Of a DNA stretch of 41,449 bases, positions 16,245 through 29,531 are shown in pieces (the first letter of the stretch is position 1; each line of letters opens with the position of its first letter). The DNA is taken from the NCBI RefSeq assembly GCF_014132355.1, contig NZ_BLZO01000142.1:1-41449 (forward strand), given 5' to 3'. The position numbers and the translations under genes are program-made. The stretch is from Okeania sp. KiyG1. GTDB lineage: Bacteria; Cyanobacteriota; Cyanobacteriia; Cyanobacteriales; Microcoleaceae. The notes under the pieces are model-generated. The model was not told where the DNA came from. It ran no database searches and worked only from the letters and a program-made list of their open reading frames with translations.

Positions 16245-16410
16245 TCAGTAAGTTATAAATTTTAGGCTGTGAACATTAACTATTCTAGTCTAAAATTGAA
16301 CAATCATACAAACTCCGCACTATAGGTTCAATGTCAGAGTGCGAACTTGATTATCTGGTTATAAAGGTGGGTTTTGGTTTTGCCTAAAATGCAGCTAAGT
16401 TAAACATTTA

Positions 16411-16523
16411 CAGGACTTACGCGCGGATATTAATCAAGTAAGGGCGAATGCCATTTCCTAAGGTCATGCTCCGCAAACGCCCCTACATCTGGCGTTTTCA
16501 AGGTGAATTTGCGTAACCTTCAG
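16411..16523. mobile_element. Small element with CAGGACTTACGC ends, copy 1
   Basis: Left end CAGGACTTACGC, right end inverse with two or three mismatches (GCGTAACCTTCAG), with a GC-rich palindrome-derived core containing 'GCTCCGCAAACGCCCCTAC'. Same ends as elements at 37556-37668 and 39180-39311 and as the insertion sequence at 29539. Confidence 0.6.
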
Positions 16524-16546: not shown

Positions 16547-16930
16547 CTAAGCTGCAACCGCTTCTTCATAAGGAACAAAAGATTTCTTCTGGGCTCCACA
16601 AATAGGACAAGACCAATCTTCAGGAATGTCTTCAAATGCTGTACCAGGAGCAATACCAGAGTCAGGGTCGCCAACAACTGGATCGTAAATCATCGAACAC
16701 ACCCGACAGATCCATTTACGGGTTGCAGCTTCCTTTCCAGCAGCTTTTTGTTTAGGTGCAACACCATTCAAACCTTCGAGAGCTTCCGTATATTGATCCG
16801 CGTGGTGATGCTCAATGCTAGTCAATAAACCAAACTTATGAGTTGCTTGACGAAACATGGAAGCGTGTTCTCGAGACTCTTCCTCTTGCTGCTTCATAAA
16901 ACTGATATAAAACGTCACATAGCCTGACAT
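16547..16930 (-). pseudogene. Rubrerythrin, C-terminal fragment
   Basis: This is the second half of a rubrerythrin cut by the TnpB insertion upstream. Recognisable from '[17 protein letters not shown]' onward: the last helix of the four-helix diiron domain, including the E-x-x-H iron ligands (ESREHA), then '[13 protein letters not shown]', then the C-terminal rubredoxin domain with both iron-binding Cys pairs (CRVC and CPIC). The dozen or so residues before that come from the element end, not from rubrerythrin. The intact protein would reduce hydrogen peroxide in the cytoplasm. The N-terminal half is at 19021-19310; about 25 codons between the halves are missing. Confidence 0.85.
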
Positions 16931-16938
16931 TCCAATGT

Positions 16939-18952
16939 TTACTTCCTGCTTCCACCGGAACTGTCGGCAGCACTCCGTCCACAGGCATTAACGGTCAAGC
17001 CGACCGCATCTCTTAAATTAATTGAGGCATTCAAGTCTCGGTCTATTGATATACCACATTCTGGGCAGTCATAAGTTCTTAGATTTAATGGCATATCTTG
17101 TACATGACCACACCTACTGCAAGTTTTTGATGATGGAAAAAATCTATCAACTACTACTAATTCACTGCCATACCATTGACACTTGTATTCTAGCTGTCTT
17201 CTAAATTCATAAAATCCTTGGTCGGCTATTGACTTTGCTAGTTTATGGTTGGCTAACATTCCAGATACATTTAAGTCTTCAATCACAACAGTGCCGTGGT
17301 TGTTATAGTCGATGTGGCGTATTACCGCCCGCACCTCTACTTCAAAACCCTGCGTGCGACTTTCACCGCACAAGGCTCCTAGCAGTCTATGGCAACGTAT
17401 CATGTGAGATACAAAATCCTTTGATTAAGACTAAACTTGGTCAGAGTCCAGTGATTCCTAATCTTCCACTATTGTTTTCAAGGAGTGTCTAATCCTACCG
17501 CCTTGGAGCTTCTGCTTCCGGGTCGCTTTGCATTCGACTAACGAGCAAGGCAATTACAGGTTAAAAGCTTCTGCCCTGTACGCATAGTTTCAGCGAGCTT
17601 CACTCTAGGTGTCTAAGCATCATCACCTATCCAACTACCGTTTCTCGACTGCCGGGGGCAATTCTGTTCCCCCATCCTACCCGTCAAGTGAGAATTCCGA
17701 GCTTCCCTCCTACTAACTAAATAACCTATTTTAGTCAGACTCACTTGCCGTTTTTCCTCGTTCCGAGTTACAGATTATTTTGACGGTTTAGGGCTGTCCA
17801 ATTCGCCTACACGATTCCCAGGGATGCGTCTAATGCCAAAATATTACGCGGGATTTCCTCGTGTGCGGTCAAGAGATAAGAGGTGGTTCTTGCCGTACTT
17901 TGAGGCGCTTTTTCAGGACATTCCGCCCCGGTACCCATGCCGTCTCCCCATTACCCCCAGTGTGCCTACCACTATACGCTCTGGTTGGGGCCTGTTGCCA
18001 GCTTCACTCTGCTAGTGGAAAGGTCTAGCTCGGTGTGGCCAGGTCGGGAGTCTGCCTTCCCTTGGCAGGTGGGACTTTCACCCACATCCGTGACTCAGTT
18101 ATTCATTGAGCTTAATTGCTCTTTGAACCCTGTTCATACCCCTCTAGTTTCTAGAGGCTCCTAACAGGAACGAGTCGCACCTTGGCTAAGTATGTTGTCA
18201 ATTTATCAAGTGCATCTCTGCGGATATTAGCTACTCGTCTATGCTGTTTGGCTAGCTTAATTACTGCTTTGTACCAATTGCTTGAATGCTTAACTTTTTT
18301 ACTCAGTTGTCTTTGTAATTTAGCTAATCTGTTTTGCGCTTTCTGTAGGGCTTAACACTCTCGAATACTTCACCATGTGCTTAGTGTTGCTAGTGTCTTA
18401 ATTCCTAAATCTACACCTACAATTTCTGTAGTTTTTGGTGTTAAAGTTGGAGTAAATTCATTCGTAGGGGCGAACGGCGTTCCTCAACAGATACCAATCA
18501 CCAGCTTGTCTGCTGATAGTTATTTTTTGAGTTGTTGCTTCAATTGGTTCGTAAGTTTTGACTATACCAATAAAAGGTAATTTGTGACTCCATCCGTTTA
18601 ATTCTATTGGTTTTCCACAATTATCTATTGTGAATGAATCAGATTTACCTTTCTTCTTAAATCTTGGATATTTACCTAAGCCTTGGAAGAACCTCTTAAA
18701 TGCTTCACCCAAGTTAATAAAAGCATATTGATAAACTTTAGATGATAAGTTTTTCATCCAAGGATAAAGTGGTTTTGTGTGATTGGTAAAAACCTCTCTG
18801 AGTTTACGAGGGCTGGGCTTGTAACCATCAACATAAGCAGCATTCCATAAACTTAAACCCCAGTTATAACACCAGCGTGAATAGCCAGCGTGTTGAGCCA
18901 TCAGAGTCTTCTGTTTATTATTAAGTTTTAGCTTTGTTCTAATGGATTTCAT
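16939..18952 (-). pseudogene. tnpB: TnpB (IS200/IS605 type), degraded and intron-split
   Basis: RNA-guided nuclease gene of an IS605-like element, inserted in rubrerythrin. The first part (18952 to about 18460) gives 'KLKLNNKQKTLMAQHAGYSR' and 'YPRFKKKGKSDSFTIDN'. A short palindrome-derived insertion near 18465-18490 breaks the frame. 'VGVDLGIKTLATLS' (RuvC first Asp) follows, then two compensating one-base shifts around 18350-18380, then the helix '..QRQLSKKVKHSSNWYK..' up to 'TTYLAK' at 18181. The group II intron interrupts there, and 'NHGTVVIEDLNVSGM' (RuvC Glu) resumes at 17301. The end has zinc pairs CSRC and CPEC and the last Asp (SIDRDLN). No tnpA is present. It cannot make full-length protein even after splicing. 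Confidence 0.85.
17302..18180 (-). ncRNA. ORF-less group II intron inserted in tnpB
   Basis: About 879 nt. The 5' end is GTGCGACTCG at 18180, the standard GUGYG start. Domain V (17346-17379) reads GAGCC..GTGCGGTGAAAGTC, with its GAAA tetraloop and complementary arm, and domain VI (17305-17342) follows, ending ..GACTATAAC at 17302. Domain I shows the usual 'GGGTGAAAGTCCCACC'. Removing it joins Leu-Ala-Lys to Asn-His-Gly in frame, as expected from other TnpB proteins. No reverse-transcriptase frame is inside (domain IV is short), so splicing and mobility would need a maturase from elsewhere. Confidence 0.9.
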
Positions 18953-19020
18953 GTATGCGTATTGGCATCCAGTCTAATGGTATGCTTAAATAGGTATTGT
19001 ATCGTTATTCTCTGATTAAG

Positions 19021-19310
19021 TCAATGCTCTCCTTCAATTGCTAATTCTAAACAACGAGAAGCGATCGCTTTTTTCTGCTCTTCGGTCAAAGTAGATGGGT
19101 CGTCTACTACTAACTCTGGGTGAAGTAGGCGAAAGTGGGAAAAAGCGTGTTGAGTTTCTTGGTTAGCTGTTTCCCGGAAAAGTTTGGCTAAATCTTCCAT
19201 GCCCAATTTCTTAGTTACTTCGGCAAAAAGAGATATTTACGGTTAGCCATTGATTCCCCTGCAAAAGCATCAGACAAGTTTTTGGCGGTGTTAGAGTTGG
19301 ACAAGTCCAT
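19021..19310 (-). pseudogene. Rubrerythrin, N-terminal fragment with frameshift
   Basis: Starts ATG at 19310 after GGAG. It reads 'MDLSNSNTAKNLSDAFAGES' and 'MANRKYLF', then hits a stop because a T run (plus-strand A5 near 19226) is one base short; adding one base continues 'FAEVTKKLGMEDLAKLFRE' and joins the remaining frame 'ANQETQHAFSHFRLLHPELV' to 'CLELAIEGE'. The E-x-x-H ligand pair QETQHA of the ferritin-like domain is present. After 'EGE' the TnpB element begins (near 19020). Together with 16547-16930 this is one broken peroxide-reducing protein. Confidence 0.85.
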
Positions 19311-19471: not shown

Positions 19472-19921
19472 ATGAACAGTAACTATACTGCAACAAATAT
19501 TAAGGAAGAAATGCAATCTAAAGGACTGAGAATTACTCCTCAGCGGTTTGCGGTTTATGCTAATCTTTTATCTCGTTCAGACCATCCCACAGTTGAGGAG
19601 ATACTGAGTGAAGTCAACCGTGAGTTACCAATTTCTTCCAAGGCAACTATTTATAGCGCCCTAACTGTGTTACGAGAAGTAGGGTTAGTTAAGGAAGTAT
19701 TGCTAGAAGAGGGAGTAACTCGTTATGACGCTAACGTTAAACCTCATCATCATTTTTGCTGTCAAAAGTGTGGCGCGATCATTGATATCGACTGGGAAAC
19801 TTTTAGTAATTTACAAATAGATCGTTTACCACCAGGAATTTACCCTGAAAGTTATGAGGTTATTGTTAAGGGTACATGCAGTCGTGAAAGTTGTAATGGA
19901 GTATTGTTCAATAATGAATAA
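19472..19921 (+). CDS. perR: Fur-family regulator, PerR type
   Basis: A 149-residue DNA-binding regulator. Residues 10-75 are the winged helix (GLRITPQRFAVYANLLSRSD, then 'SSKATIYSALTVLREVGLV'). The regulatory half has the 'HHHFCCQKCGAIIDID' metal segment, with a CxxC, and a C-terminal pair (CSRESC) completing the structural zinc site. It is divergent from rubrerythrin, a classic PerR target, which favours PerR over Fur or Zur. A TATAAT-like -10 lies at 19427-19432. A strong hairpin terminator follows at 20005. Metal choice and peroxide sensing cannot be proven from sequence. Confidence 0.78.
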   Translation: MNSNYTATNIKEEMQSKGLRITPQRFAVYANLLSRSDHPTVEEILSEVNRELPISSKATIYSALTVLREVGLVKEVLLEEGVTRYDANVKPHHHFCCQKCGAIIDIDWETFSNLQIDRLPPGIYPESYEVIVKGTCSRESCNGVLFNNE

Positions 19922-23660: not shown

Positions 23661-24200
23661 AATATGTGTCAGTCTACTACTGTAACTATTGGACAATAGA
23701 TAAATCAAACATCAATATCGGGAAACAGAGCGTTATAACTACAGCAGTTGCTCCGCCTTTTCCTGCGGAATTTTCCCCTTTCCATGTGCGTAGCAAATAT
23801 GTGTCAGTCTACTACTGTAACTATTGGACAATAGATAAATCAAACATAAATATTGGCAAACAGAGCGTTATAACTGCAGCAGTTGCTCCGCCTTTTCCTG
23901 CGGAATTTTCCCCTTTCCATGTGCGTAGCAAATATGTGTCAGTCTACTACTGTAACTATTGGACAATAGATAAATAAAACATCAATATCGGCAAACAGAG
24001 CGTTATAACTGCAGCAGTTGCTCCGCCTTTTCCTGCGGAATGCTCCCCTTTCCATGTGCGTAGCAAATATGTGTCAGTCTACTACTGTAACTATTGGACA
24101 ATAGATAAATAAAACATAAATATCGGGAAACAGAGCGTTATAACTGCAGCAGTTGCTCCGCCTTTTCCTGCGGAATGCTTCGCTTTCCATGTGCATAGCA
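23661..24200. repeat. Four tandem copies of a 135-bp unit
   Basis: Unit starts 'AATATGTGTCAGTCTACTAC' at 23661, 23796, 23931 and 24066, exactly 135 bp apart, over 95% alike. Each has 'GGACAATAGATAAA', a GC-rich 'GCTCCGCCTTTTCCTGCGGA' hairpin and 'CCTTTCCATGTGCGTAGCAA'. Because 135 is a multiple of three, copies 1-2 stay open in one frame, but TAA appears in copies 3 and 4, so I treat it as noncoding. Confidence 0.9.
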
Positions 24201-24260
24201 AAGCGGAACAGATGTTCTATCTCTACTTTCATGGAACAAAACAAATGAAAACTATAAGTA

Positions 24261-24897: not shown

Positions 24898-27225
24898 ATG
24901 GCTATATTTGAAGTAACTAGACGAACAGATAATGGTAGGGGGAATACTCCCGGAACCCTAAGTAAAGCAATTTTGGATGCCAATAACCGACCAGGGAACG
25001 ATACTATTGTTATCAAGAACAATGTCAGATTATCTGGCGAAATGATTCAACTAATTGATAGTAATATTACCATTACGGGTGACGATCCGGATACAGCTCA
25101 GGAGGAAAGAGCTAGAATTAGTGGTGACAATACCTACCGTCCATTGTTCGTGAGGTCGGGAACGGTGAATATTAATAACTTAAACCTGACTAATGGTACA
25201 GCTCAGGGGGGAAATAGTAATCTATCAGGCGGAGGCGCCGGAATGGGTGGTGCCCTGTTTATCTATGATGGTAATGTTTCTGTAGATAATGTTAACTTTA
25301 GTAATAACCAGGCAATAGGTGGAAATTCTGATGATGATACTAATAGCAATGTAGGTGTAGGTGGCGGTATGTTTAGTACGAGGTTACCTGAGAATGAAGG
25401 AGTTAATGATTCAGGCATAGTATTCAACAGTAGGAGCGCCACTGGTGGCAACGGTGGCTTCCTTGGCAACGGTGGCTACGGCCTTGGTGGCCCGGCTTCA
25501 GGTATTGTCAGTGGCTTCACTGGCCGCGGTGGCGAAGGTGGCTTCGGTGGTAGCGGTGGCATTGGCATCGGTGGCCTTGGTGGCTTCGGCTCTACCAACT
25601 TCGGCTTCAGTGGCGACGGTGGCAACGGTGGCACTGGCATCGGTGGCAACGGTGGTTTCGGTGGTGGCGGTGGTTACGGTATTGGTGGCTTTGGTGGCGC
25701 TGGCGACAGCTTCATTGGCGAAGGTGGCTTTGGTGGCCTTGGCTACGGTGGCGAAGGTGGCTTCGGTGGTGGCGGTGGCGCTGGCTACGGTGGCCCCCCT
25801 GGCGCTGGTGCCTTCCTTGGTAGAGGAGGCGTTGGCTCTGGTGGCGATGGTGGCTTCGGTGCTGGCAAAGGTGGCAGCAAGTTTGGCGGGGGTGCTACTC
25901 CCGAGGTTTTCTTGGGTGGCGACGGTGGCGACGGAATGGGTGGAGGTGTATTCATCCGTTCCGGCAGCCTTAATATTTCCCAAAGTACCTTTAGCAATAA
26001 TAGTGCTACTGGTGGCTCTGGTGGAATATTTCCAGGTGGTCTCGATGGTGCAAATGGAGAAGGTCTCGGTGGTGCAATATTTGCTATGGAACTCACTGAT
26101 GAAAACCCCGATGGTAGCGACCAGGGGATGCCCACTTCTCTCCCTACTGTGACTATTGATGCCTCCACTACATTCTCCTCTAATAATGCTGCTAATGCTG
26201 ACACAAATGGTTCCGCCCCAGACAGCATTGCATCAGGGGATGACCAAGACAACGATGACCTGTTTGGTAGCACAATCACTCGTAGTAACGCTGTCAACAA
26301 CGAACCAGTCCGTTTTGATTTTAATAATGATGGAGTAGCAGATATTCTCTGGCGTAATGGAAATAATGGAGCTAACCGGATTTGGTTTATGGATGATGAC
26401 GGAAGAAGGATATCTCAAGCTAATCCAGGAAATGTAGGTACAGCTTGGGATGTAGCTGGAGTTGACGATTTTAATGATGATGGAGTAGCAGACATTCTCT
26501 GGCGCAATGGAAATAATGGAGCTAACCGGATTTGGTTTATGAATGATAACGGAAGAAGGAGCGGTCAACCTGCTAATCCAGGAAATGTAGGTACAGCTTG
26601 GGATGTCGCCGGAGTTGACGATTTTAATGATGATGGAGTAGCAGACATTCTCTGGCGCAATGGAAATAATGGAGCTAACCGGATTTGGTTGATGAATGAT
26701 AACGGAAGAAGGAGCGGTCAACCTGTTAATCCAGGAAGGTTAGGTACAGCTTGGGATGTCGCCGGAGTTGACGATTTTAATGATGATGGAGTAGCAGACA
26801 TTCTCTGGCGTAATGGAAACAATGGACGTAACCGGATTTGGTTGATGAATGATAACGGAAGAAGGAGCGGTCAACCTGTTAATCCAGGAAATTTAGGTAC
26901 AGCTTGGGATGTCGCCGGAGTAGGCGATTTTAATGATGATGATGTAGCAGACATTCTCTGGCGCAATGGAAATAATGGAGCGAACCGGATTTGGTTGATG
27001 AATGATAACGGAAGAAGGAGCGGTCAACCTGTTAATCCAGGAAATTTAGGTACAGCTTGGGATGTCGCCGGAGTAGGCAATTTTAATAATGATGGAGTAG
27101 CAGATATTCTCTGGCGTCGTGGAAATGGAGCGAACCGGATTTGGTTGATGGATGACGACGGCACATTAGACAGTAGCGTTAATCCCGGAAATATAGGTAG
27201 TGTTTGGGATGTAGCCGGAATATAA
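24898..27225 (+). CDS. Beta-helix / Gly-rich / FG-GAP surface protein, paralogue 1
   Basis: 775 residues. Residues 1-150 form a Pmp-like right-handed beta-helix (rungs such as 'VNINNLNLTNGTAQGGN', 'VSVDNVNFSNNQAIGG'). Residues about 170-350 are a Gly-rich loop of GFGG/GGxGG units. Two more rungs follow ('LNISQSTFSNNSATGG'). Residues 477-775 are six 51-residue FG-GAP/VCBS-like repeats with the calcium loop DFNDDGVADILWR, nearly identical in DNA (153-bp period). There is no N-terminal signal peptide, so export, if any, would use a type I or other C-terminal signal. AAGGAG precedes the ATG. The neighbouring 27348 gene is a duplicate including its leader. Likely an extracellular, calcium-binding matrix or adhesion protein. 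Confidence 0.8.
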   Translation: MAIFEVTRRTDNGRGNTPGTLSKAILDANNRPGNDTIVIKNNVRLSGEMIQLIDSNITITGDDPDTAQEERARISGDNTYRPLFVRSGTVNINNLNLTNGTAQGGNSNLSGGGAGMGGALFIYDGNVSVDNVNFSNNQAIGGNSDDDTNSNVGVGGGMFSTRLPENEGVNDSGIVFNSRSATGGNGGFLGNGGYGLGGPASGIVSGFTGRGGEGGFGGSGGIGIGGLGGFGSTNFGFSGDGGNGGTGIGGNGGFGGGGGYGIGGFGGAGDSFIGEGGFGGLGYGGEGGFGGGGGAGYGGPPGAGAFLGRGGVGSGGDGGFGAGKGGSKFGGGATPEVFLGGDGGDGMGGGVFIRSGSLNISQSTFSNNSATGGSGGIFPGGLDGANGEGLGGAIFAMELTDENPDGSDQGMPTSLPTVTIDASTTFSSNNAANADTNGSAPDSIASGDDQDNDDLFGSTITRSNAVNNEPVRFDFNNDGVADILWRNGNNGANRIWFMDDDGRRISQANPGNVGTAWDVAGVDDFNDDGVADILWRNGNNGANRIWFMNDNGRRSGQPANPGNVGTAWDVAGVDDFNDDGVADILWRNGNNGANRIWLMNDNGRRSGQPVNPGRLGTAWDVAGVDDFNDDGVADILWRNGNNGRNRIWLMNDNGRRSGQPVNPGNLGTAWDVAGVGDFNDDDVADILWRNGNNGANRIWLMNDNGRRSGQPVNPGNLGTAWDVAGVGNFNNDGVADILWRRGNGANRIWLMDDDGTLDSSVNPGNIGSVWDVAGI

Positions 27226-27347
27226 TATCAAATCCAGTAGCATCGATACAATTTCAGAATCTAGGAGTTTGGTCTCCAAACTCCGTAGACACCTTGCCTT
27301 CAATGTCAACAAATTAATACAACAATAACTCAGGAGGACTAACAAAA

Positions 27348-29531
27348 ATGGCTACATTTGAAGTAACTATACCAACAGATAATGGTTTGGGGAATACTAC
27401 CGGAACCCTAAGTAAAGCAATTTTGGATGCGAATAACCTACCAGGGGACGATACTATCGTTATCAAGAACAATGTTACATTATCCGGCGAAATGATTCAA
27501 CTAATTGATAGTAATATTACGATTACGGGGGACGATCCGGATACAGTTGAGGAAGAAACAGCTATAATTAGTGGCGACGATACCTACCGCCCATTGTTTG
27601 TTAGGTCGGGAACAGTGAATATTAACAACTTAACCCTGACTAATGGTAAAGCACAGGGTGGAAATAGCGATCAAGGAGGCGGGGGTGCCGGAATGGGTGG
27701 TGCCCTGTTTATCTATGATGGTAATGTTTCTGTCGATAGTGTTAACTTTAGTAATAACCAGGCAATAGGTGGAGATTCTGGTGATGCTACTGCTAGCAAT
27801 GTAGGTGGCGGTATCTTTAGTACTAGGTTATCTTCTAATAATGGTACTGATGATATAGGTGATTACGGCGGTTACGATGGTAACGGTGGCGACGGTGGCT
27901 TTCTTGGCGACGGTGGCCAGGGCATCGGTGGCGACAACTTCAGTGGCAACGGTGGTGACGGCAACGGTGGTGATGGTGGCTTTGGTGGCGACGGTGGTGA
28001 CGGCGACGGTGGCTACAGCTACAGTGGCAACGGTGGCGATGGCTACGGTGGTGACGGTGGCTTTGGTGGCGGCGGTGGCCAGGGCATTGGTGGCGATAGC
28101 GATGGCGATGGCTACGGTGGTGATGGTGGCTTTGGTGGCGGTGGTGGCCAGGGCATTGGTGGCGATAGCGATGGCTTCAGCTCTGGTGGCAACCGTGGCT
28201 ACGGTGGTGGCAACGGTGGCTTCAGCGACAGTCTAGGTAGCAATAGTGGCGATGGTGGTTATGGAATGGGTGGAGCTGTATTTATCCGTTCCGGCAGCCT
28301 TAATATTTCCCAAAGTACCTTTAGCAATAATACTGCCACTGGTGGTTCTGGTGTAAGCAATGGAGAAGGTCTCGGCGGTGGAATCTTTGCTATGAAACTC
28401 ACTGGTACAAACTTCCTTGGTAGCGATCAAGGAATGCCAACTTCTCTCCCTACTGTCACTATTGATGGCAGCACTACATTCGACTCTAATGATGCTGCTG
28501 ATGCTGGCACAGATGGTTCTGCTCCAGAGATCATTGCATCAGGTGATGACCAGAACAACGATGACTTGTTTGGCATTACGATTACTCGCAGTAACGCTGT
28601 CAACAACGAACCAGTCCGTTTTGATTTTAATTCCGATGGAGTAGCAGACATTCTCTGGCGTAATGGAAACAATGGAGGTAACCGGATTTGGTTCATGGAT
28701 GATGACGGCACACGGAACAGTCAACGTAATATCCAAAGGTTAGGTACAGCTTGGGATGTCGCCGGAGTAGACGATTTTAATGATGATGGAGTAGCAGATA
28801 TTCTCTGGCGTCATGGAAATAATGGAAATAACCGGATTTGGTTCATGGATGATGACGGCACACGGAACACTCAAGCTAATCCGGGAAGGTTAGGTACAGC
28901 TTGGGATGTCGCTGGAGTAGACGATTTTAATGATGATGGAGTAGCAGATATTCTCTGGCGTCATGGAAATAATGGAAATAACCGGATTTGGTTTATGAAT
29001 GATAACGGAAGAAGGAGCGGTCAACCTGTTAATCCGGGAAGGTTAGGTACAGCTTGGGATGTCGCCGGATTAGACGATTTTAATGATGACGGAGTAGCAG
29101 ATATTCTCTGGCGTCATGGAAATAATGGAAATAACCGGATTTGGTTTATGAATGATGACGGCACACGGAACACTCAAGCTAATCCGGGAAGGTTAGGTAC
29201 AGCTTGGGATGTCGCCGGATTAGACGATTTTAATGATGATGGAGTAGCAGACATTCTCTGGCGTAATGGAAATAATGGAGCTAACCGGATTTGGTTTATG
29301 AATGATAACGGAAGAAGGAGCGGTCAACCTGTTAATCTGGGAAGGTTAGGTACAGCTTGGGATGTCGCCGGAGTTGCCGATTTTAATGATGATGGAGTAG
29401 CAGATATTCTCTGGCGTAATGGAAATAATGGAGCTAACCGGATTTGGTTGATGGATGACGACGGCACATTAGACAGTAGTGTTAATCCCGGAAGTATAGG
29501 TAATGCTTGGGATGTAGCCTTCAACAATTAA
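27348..29531 (+). CDS. Beta-helix / Gly-rich / FG-GAP surface protein, paralogue 2
   Basis: 727 residues, same architecture as the gene 120 bp upstream: beta-helix start 'MATFEVTIPTDNGLGNTTGT', a Gly-Asp-rich insert (GGDGGDGDGG, GYGGDGGFGGGGG) where paralogue 1 has GFGG units, the 'GGAVFIRSGSLNISQSTFSN' rung, and six FG-GAP-like repeats (DFNDDGVADILWRHGNNGNN). The Gly insert is shorter and more acidic. GGAGG precedes the ATG at the right distance. The conserved ends and divergent Gly region show tandem gene duplication followed by rapid change of the Gly-rich loop. Cotranscription with paralogue 1 is possible as no terminator is evident between them. Confidence 0.8.
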   Translation: MATFEVTIPTDNGLGNTTGTLSKAILDANNLPGDDTIVIKNNVTLSGEMIQLIDSNITITGDDPDTVEEETAIISGDDTYRPLFVRSGTVNINNLTLTNGKAQGGNSDQGGGGAGMGGALFIYDGNVSVDSVNFSNNQAIGGDSGDATASNVGGGIFSTRLSSNNGTDDIGDYGGYDGNGGDGGFLGDGGQGIGGDNFSGNGGDGNGGDGGFGGDGGDGDGGYSYSGNGGDGYGGDGGFGGGGGQGIGGDSDGDGYGGDGGFGGGGGQGIGGDSDGFSSGGNRGYGGGNGGFSDSLGSNSGDGGYGMGGAVFIRSGSLNISQSTFSNNTATGGSGVSNGEGLGGGIFAMKLTGTNFLGSDQGMPTSLPTVTIDGSTTFDSNDAADAGTDGSAPEIIASGDDQNNDDLFGITITRSNAVNNEPVRFDFNSDGVADILWRNGNNGGNRIWFMDDDGTRNSQRNIQRLGTAWDVAGVDDFNDDGVADILWRHGNNGNNRIWFMDDDGTRNTQANPGRLGTAWDVAGVDDFNDDGVADILWRHGNNGNNRIWFMNDNGRRSGQPVNPGRLGTAWDVAGLDDFNDDGVADILWRHGNNGNNRIWFMNDDGTRNTQANPGRLGTAWDVAGLDDFNDDGVADILWRNGNNGANRIWFMNDNGRRSGQPVNLGRLGTAWDVAGVADFNDDGVADILWRNGNNGANRIWLMDDDGTLDSSVNPGSIGNAWDVAFNN

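Follow-up and report, generated by a model that had tools for sequence, protein, structure and literature searches.

A group II intron with no protein of its own is present, in essentially identical copies, in five clearly diverged tnpB genes of a single Okeania genome (11 Mb, 198 contigs, completeness given as 92%), and comparison of these sequences indicates that it very probably homed separately into the diverged copies by means of a reverse transcriptase that a related intron provides. One of the five lies in the window, which is the whole of contig C142 (41,449 nt), where the intron interrupts the tnpB gene of an IS605-type element that itself interrupts a rubrerythrin gene; this three-level nesting, proposed in an initial annotation, is borne out here. 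Because a single intron in identical copies, clearly different hosts and empty targets acting as controls occur together, the set amounts to a natural experiment that separates retrohoming from riding along and lets a target rule be read from the gene of an RNA-guided transposon.

The outermost layer is a rubrerythrin gene on the reverse strand, whose 5′ part (19027–19310, with the ATG at 19310) ends at the target GAG adjoining the element and whose 3′ part (16547–16888) includes a rubredoxin domain (PF00301, 9.3e-23) and is 97–98% identical to its counterparts in congeners. Weakly matched by PF02915 when taken alone, the 5′ part aligns with the intact gene in all five Okeania congeners used for comparison (G001–G005), where both halves form a single open frame of 255 amino acids (237 counted from the ATG) and belong to one gene, as had been supposed, rather than to two unrelated ones. 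Diiron N-terminal and C-terminal rubredoxin domains share one frame in each of these congeners and no longer do so in the window, where alignment to the congeners shows that 81 bp of the gene are absent between the two parts. The halves had been rightly placed on one strand on either side of tnpB, but position 16930, from which the 3′ part had been started, falls inside the right end of the element. The rubrerythrin frame is additionally broken by a 1-nt deletion in a T run (19225–19229, reverse strand), possibly a sequencing error.

Relative to the five congeners, the rubrerythrin remnant has six synonymous changes of its own and, inside the gene, no replacement unique to it (the one replacement that was counted sits in CAG, which is part of the right end of the element and outside rubrerythrin proper), so that selection appears to have acted on the gene until not long ago and, judging from these sequences, its disruption looks recent. 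This Okeania genome seems recently to have lost a peroxide-stress gene, and at the given completeness of 92% a PF02915 profile search found no second classical rubrerythrin in it. The only other match, on contig C39, was rejected as a substitute, being AcsF, magnesium-protoporphyrin monomethyl ester cyclase (532 bits against a cut-off of 192.5); all six Okeania genomes have a second PF02915 match of like length and in this range of scores, the identification as AcsF applying to that of the window genome only. Divergent from rubrerythrin is a PerR-like gene of the Fur family (19472–19921, forward strand; PF01475, 2.4e-24), which reaches 99.8 bits against NCBIfam PerR, below the curated cut-off of 180, and which is kept beside the intact rubrerythrin in 5/5 congeners, in one continuous alignment that leaves out no more than 24 nt of the Fur gene. 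Of the initial reading, the disabled rubrerythrin and the presence beside it of a Fur-family gene, a putative regulator, are upheld. On the other side of rubrerythrin, downstream of it, a repeat at 16406–16516 recurs on contigs C1 and C82 at 91% and 95% identity.

The element interrupting rubrerythrin (16889–19026, reverse strand) extends from a left end CATTGACTTAATCA to a right end ...GAAGCAG. These ends were read across 18 tnpB copies, all from the window genome (right end in 18, left end in 16); the copy list is incomplete, the similarity search having scored 40 of 525 candidates. The left end starts straight after the target, reading AATTGAC in the C31 copy, and directly 5′ of it lies the target motif GAG (19027–19029, reverse strand), found at the same place in 15 of the 17 copies read and predating the insertion, as it is present in congener empty sites. 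Support for a 6-bp hairpin in the right end (16889–16950, reverse strand) is moderate, with 91.7% of cells paired in the 18-copy alignment and two pairs changed on both sides; of 500 shuffles, 4 reach the covariation score and 46 the count of such two-sided changes. No match to tnpA (Y1, PF01797) lies within 16889–19026, and Y1_Tnp has 24 matches elsewhere in the genome, at least four of which are open and nearly full length. Together with its tnpB domains and an insertion 3′ of a short motif without duplication, the right-end hairpin likens this family to IS200/IS605 elements carrying tnpB without tnpA, from which the window copy differs in having lost 81 bp of target.

Both tnpB exons are on the reverse strand, exon 1 (18181–18952) matching PF12323 (HTH_OrfB_IS605) and exon 2 (16939–17301) matching PF07282 (Cas12f1-like_TNB, 8e-27). 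A short insertion and 1-nt indels break the frame of exon 1, and the gene is broken even without the intron, its open stretches being 171 and 177 codons long; the initial annotation had missed this damage. Among the other intron-bearing copies, that on C109 has no stop over 367 codons and retains PF12323, PF01385 and PF07282, that on C171 (L035) is a single open stretch of 371 codons, that on C60 has a frame shift ahead of what we take to be the last catalytic region, and that on C31 has an internal stop. The short insert in exon 1 of the window copy is at 18458–18490; in the nearest copy, that on C85, an in-frame palindromic insert related to it occupies roughly this position.

The intron itself (17302–18180, reverse strand; 879 nt, GTGCG...ACTATAAC) splits tnpB between LAK and NHG, as initially described, its limits being set by alignment with intronless tnpB copies. 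Its assignment to group II, previously made from the sequence alone, agrees with a domain V and VI match (17302–17380, reverse strand; RF00029, 51.3 bits, E 2.4e-07, gathering threshold 40) and with the GTGCG...AC ends of all five copies, which follow the 5′ GUGYG/3′ AY rule of group II introns. Whole-intron single-sequence folding adds little (z −2.39, 20 shuffles), and the list of open reading frames has no reverse transcriptase or maturase within the 879 nt. In IStrons the intron reaches from one end of the element to the other, and its splicing removes the insertion from the host gene; here the intron ends inside tnpB and the element ends outside the intron.

Group II introns are numerous in this genome, with at least 43 RF00029 matches at E ≤0.001 (150 of 531 candidates scored). 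Exact-pattern searches for this particular intron at this site had no match in a genome contig database, from which its own genome may be absent, and, across 389 genomes of the order, recovered only the window genome, exact patterns being such that variants would escape them. An ORF-less intron at locus L104 (contig C51 of G012) is 85% identical, and its 5′ and 3′ exons, which from reading by eye we take to be tnpB-like and formylglycine-generating-enzyme-like, resemble different genes, as if recombined at the intron.

Within the window genome, the copies on C142, C109, C31, C60 and C171 are 100% identical to one another in all ten pairwise comparisons of the intron (that on C60 lacks 1 nt), whereas their host exons are only 76.8–90.0% (exon 1), 78.9–87.4% (exon 2) and 79.0–89.2% (both together) identical. 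A single gain of the intron, which then spread as a passenger of tnpB transposition, would account for its occurrence in one element family at one site. Intron-bearing copies may also have moved recently, as congeners hold the element at none of the five intron-bearing loci where the flank was found (five congeners each examined for C142 and C31, three for C60 and one each for C109 and C171). Of seven resolved intronless loci, congeners have the element at four (G004 at C110, C118 and C172, and G001 at C58; p 0.07 for the comparison with the intron-bearing loci). Against spread as a passenger, the exons differ by about 11–21% while the introns do not; moreover, when the exons of 18 copies are placed in one joint tree, the intron label changes four times, each change being forced by well supported branches, and 0/200 bootstrap trees need a single change, which leaves this alternative very unlikely. 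Among 500 shuffles of the label, 174 give a value as low, so that intron-bearing copies cluster no more than at random. Since trees of single exons, which also need four changes each, force only two of them, since label changes can be gains or losses (the sister copies L035 and L037 could share one gain), and since some copies are recombinant, separate entry into each of the five copies is a likely reading, not a count.

Recombination among copies is probable for L036, L045 and L047, whose nearest tnpB relatives differ between exon 1 and exon 2. Their chimeric appearance is what might be expected had older introns been made uniform by DNA gene conversion or recombination between copies. Yet sequence identity stops near the splice sites (exon bases at 11 nt downstream, and at 15 nt or more upstream, are no longer alike in the five copies), and chimerism is not special to intron-bearing copies, as L045 and L047 lack the intron and no chimerism is seen in L033, L035 and L037; homogenization of this kind is accordingly rated highly improbable. 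Equally to be weighed is an assembly artifact in which one intron sequence was placed at several loci, for which there is a precedent of sorts in contigs C152, C153 and C154, 99.97% identical up to the 3′ end of an intron and divergent thereafter. Against this, the two flanks of the C142, C109, C31 and C60 insertions lie 81–1229 bp apart at one congener place, so that these four joins are right (C171 being outside this comparison), and the 1-nt difference of the C60 intron is at odds with a single misplaced sequence; an artifact is thus very unlikely.

The preferred reading, separate homing, is reinforced by how the intron matches its target. The latter consists of IBS2 and IBS1 in tnpB (TACTTAGCCAAG; 18181–18192, reverse strand), identified by pattern search and junction reading, and is paired over 6/6 positions of IBS1 by EBS1 (TTTGGC, 17835–17840, reverse strand) and over 5/5 positions of IBS2 by EBS2 (AAGTA, 17896–17900, reverse strand) of the window intron. 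The places of both EBS motifs were picked first, by complementarity and alignment by eye, and scored afterwards on eight aligned introns, four from the window genome and one each from G001, G012, G022 and G050. At its one aligned place, EBS1 pairs 6/6 with its own exon in all eight introns, the best value in its row each time, against a mean of 2.5 and a maximum of 5 for 56 cross pairings; EBS2 pairs with its own exon at 4 or 5 of 5 positions in 8/8 introns, against a mean of 1.8 for cross pairings, one of 56 reaching 5. Related introns therefore sit at differing sites, each matched to its own EBS.

Occupancy is restricted in the same way. The string TACTTAGCCAAR occurs 15 times in the window genome, at five occupied tnpB sites, six empty tnpB sites and four empty sites elsewhere. 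Across 28 tnpB copies, comprising 11 perfect targets from an exhaustive pattern search and 17 imperfect ones whose junction was read, the intron occupies 5/11 of the former and 0/17 of the latter (p 0.005); unreadable fragments on C165, C68 (two) and C116 were left out of the junction reading, and the copies on C172 and C113, whose printed junctions are displaced by an insert, are respectively imperfect by alignment and absent from the perfect-target pattern matches. That 10 of the 15 perfect 12-nt targets are empty genome-wide counts against homing. Nevertheless, identical introns in exons that are 79–89% alike, the label changes, the pairing with the target and the restricted occupancy together make separate homing the most likely explanation. 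An A at position −13 goes with occupancy in 5 of 6 copies, against 0 of 22 copies without it, an association noticed post hoc on which no claim is made. The inserts in the C172 (L043) and C113 (L224) copies are palindromic and follow directly on AACCAC, a short way past the homing site.

A tnpB element landed in rubrerythrin, destroying the gene with loss of 81 bp of target, and from these data we infer that its tnpB gene is the homing site of an 879-nt intron without its own protein. Having presumably spliced, the intron RNA would recognize tnpB through EBS1 and EBS2, reverse-splice into the target just ahead of the NHG codons and be copied into DNA by a reverse transcriptase that a related intron, on C152, provides in trans, most likely entering each of the five tnpB copies separately. 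The C152 intron has 94% identity to that of the window in its first 54 nt, about 82% across 437 nt and 83% in its last 82, and its protein is open over 528 amino acids with RVT_1, RVT_N and GIIM; it scores 296.3 bits with a group II reverse transcriptase/maturase model (cut-off 300) and displays, by eye, a YADD motif and an HNH-like end. The relatives on C116 and C124 have broken frames in the list of open reading frames. The C152 protein is the best candidate for help in trans, against which counts the roughly 82% RNA identity between the two introns over 437 nt. The contigs C152, C153 and C154 (L083, L227 and L228) share 3.89 kb and then branch at the intron repeat in the assembly.

The intron is younger than the tnpB gene and the element is younger than rubrerythrin. 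Of the order that had been put forward, rubrerythrin followed by the element and then by the intron, the first step is retained and the second is not readable, because the disruption and the intron both look recent and the tnpB copy is old and decayed, being about 10% distant from its nearest relative with broken frames. The element may thus have been in decay before it landed, and the intron was possibly in place by then too.

Target deletions accompany all four resolvable intron-bearing insertions and one of eight resolved intronless ones (p 0.01, post hoc and from small numbers); C171, whose flanks are repeats, and the copies on C98, C94, C25, C91 and C170, which have no usable empty site, are omitted from this count. 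In the four cases the match to the congener runs exactly up to the left end on one side and resumes at the right end on the other, and the congener DNA between the flanks measures 81 bp for C142 (five congeners), 225 bp (G001) or 512 bp (G003) for C31, 1156 bp for C60 (G005 alone) and 1229 bp for C109 (G001 alone). The C31 case is intergenic and relies on G001 and G003. The congener bases preceding the right flank are GGAG (C142 and C31), GAAG (C60) and AGGA (C109), resembling the target motif in three. Seven of the eight resolved intronless copies are precise: five have aligned right flanks and congener empty sites that reveal insertion without duplication (C110, C118, C167, C146 and C58), one is matched to its empty site by 13 identical bases (C172), and one is judged by eye from the continuity of the interrupted reading frame (C160); the right flank of the eighth (C85) is absent from the 5.5–6.5 kb examined in three congeners. 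Some gaps may represent gains in congeners, as G002 and G005 hold 213 bp more than G003 at the C110 site. Chimeras made by the intron were rejected as a general cause of the deletions, since the conflict between exon neighbors is also seen in intronless copies.

IS605-type elements travel as single strands, and the strand that bears the target motif on the 5′ side of the left end is here the tnpB sense strand, with which the intron RNA pairs. It is conceivable, though unlikely, that the intron enters the element during transposition by reverse splicing into this single-stranded intermediate, in which case introns would be confined to newly landed copies; the unshared intron-bearing loci and the target deletions are in line with this route, which, if true, would link two mobile elements working through single strands.

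The principles involved are already known from Thermosynechococcus elongatus, and the Okeania case is an unusually clear instance of them. There, ORF-less introns are moved by driver proteins and their EBS motifs diverge; F3 comprises seven identical ORF-less introns, F4 consists of three introns at a conserved site of the IS200-family element ISEL1, and mobile introns and insertion elements are preferred insertion sites (Mohr et al. 2010, PMC2882425). Cyanobacterial ORF-less introns, drivers acting in trans, EBS divergence and an IS200-family site are thus common to both systems, whereas the Okeania host is mesophilic and marine, its host copies differ strongly from one another, so that homing can be told from co-transposition, and one of them lies in a chromosomal gene; mobility was assayed in Thermosynechococcus (PMC2882425). 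IStrons likewise combine a self-splicing intron with an insertion sequence, of IS605 type in several, but they join a group I intron to the latter and the whole insertion is spliced from the host gene (PMC4227781), whereas splicing of the Okeania group II intron from inside tnpB could restore at most tnpB, not rubrerythrin. The nested group II introns, or twintron, of the marine cyanobacterium Trichodesmium represent an intron within an intron (PMC4649490) rather than an intron within a transposon within a gene. Some cyanobacteria are reported to have over 100 group II introns in a genome (PMC8919778), and the matches listed in a literature search include no description of the Okeania case.

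Elsewhere in the window, a tandem array at 23661–24202 consists of four 135-bp units with 96% matches. Two adjoining large open reading frames (775 and 727 amino acids; 24898–29531) also contain tandem repeats, including 153-bp units in about 5.5 copies and 150-bp units in about 5.9.
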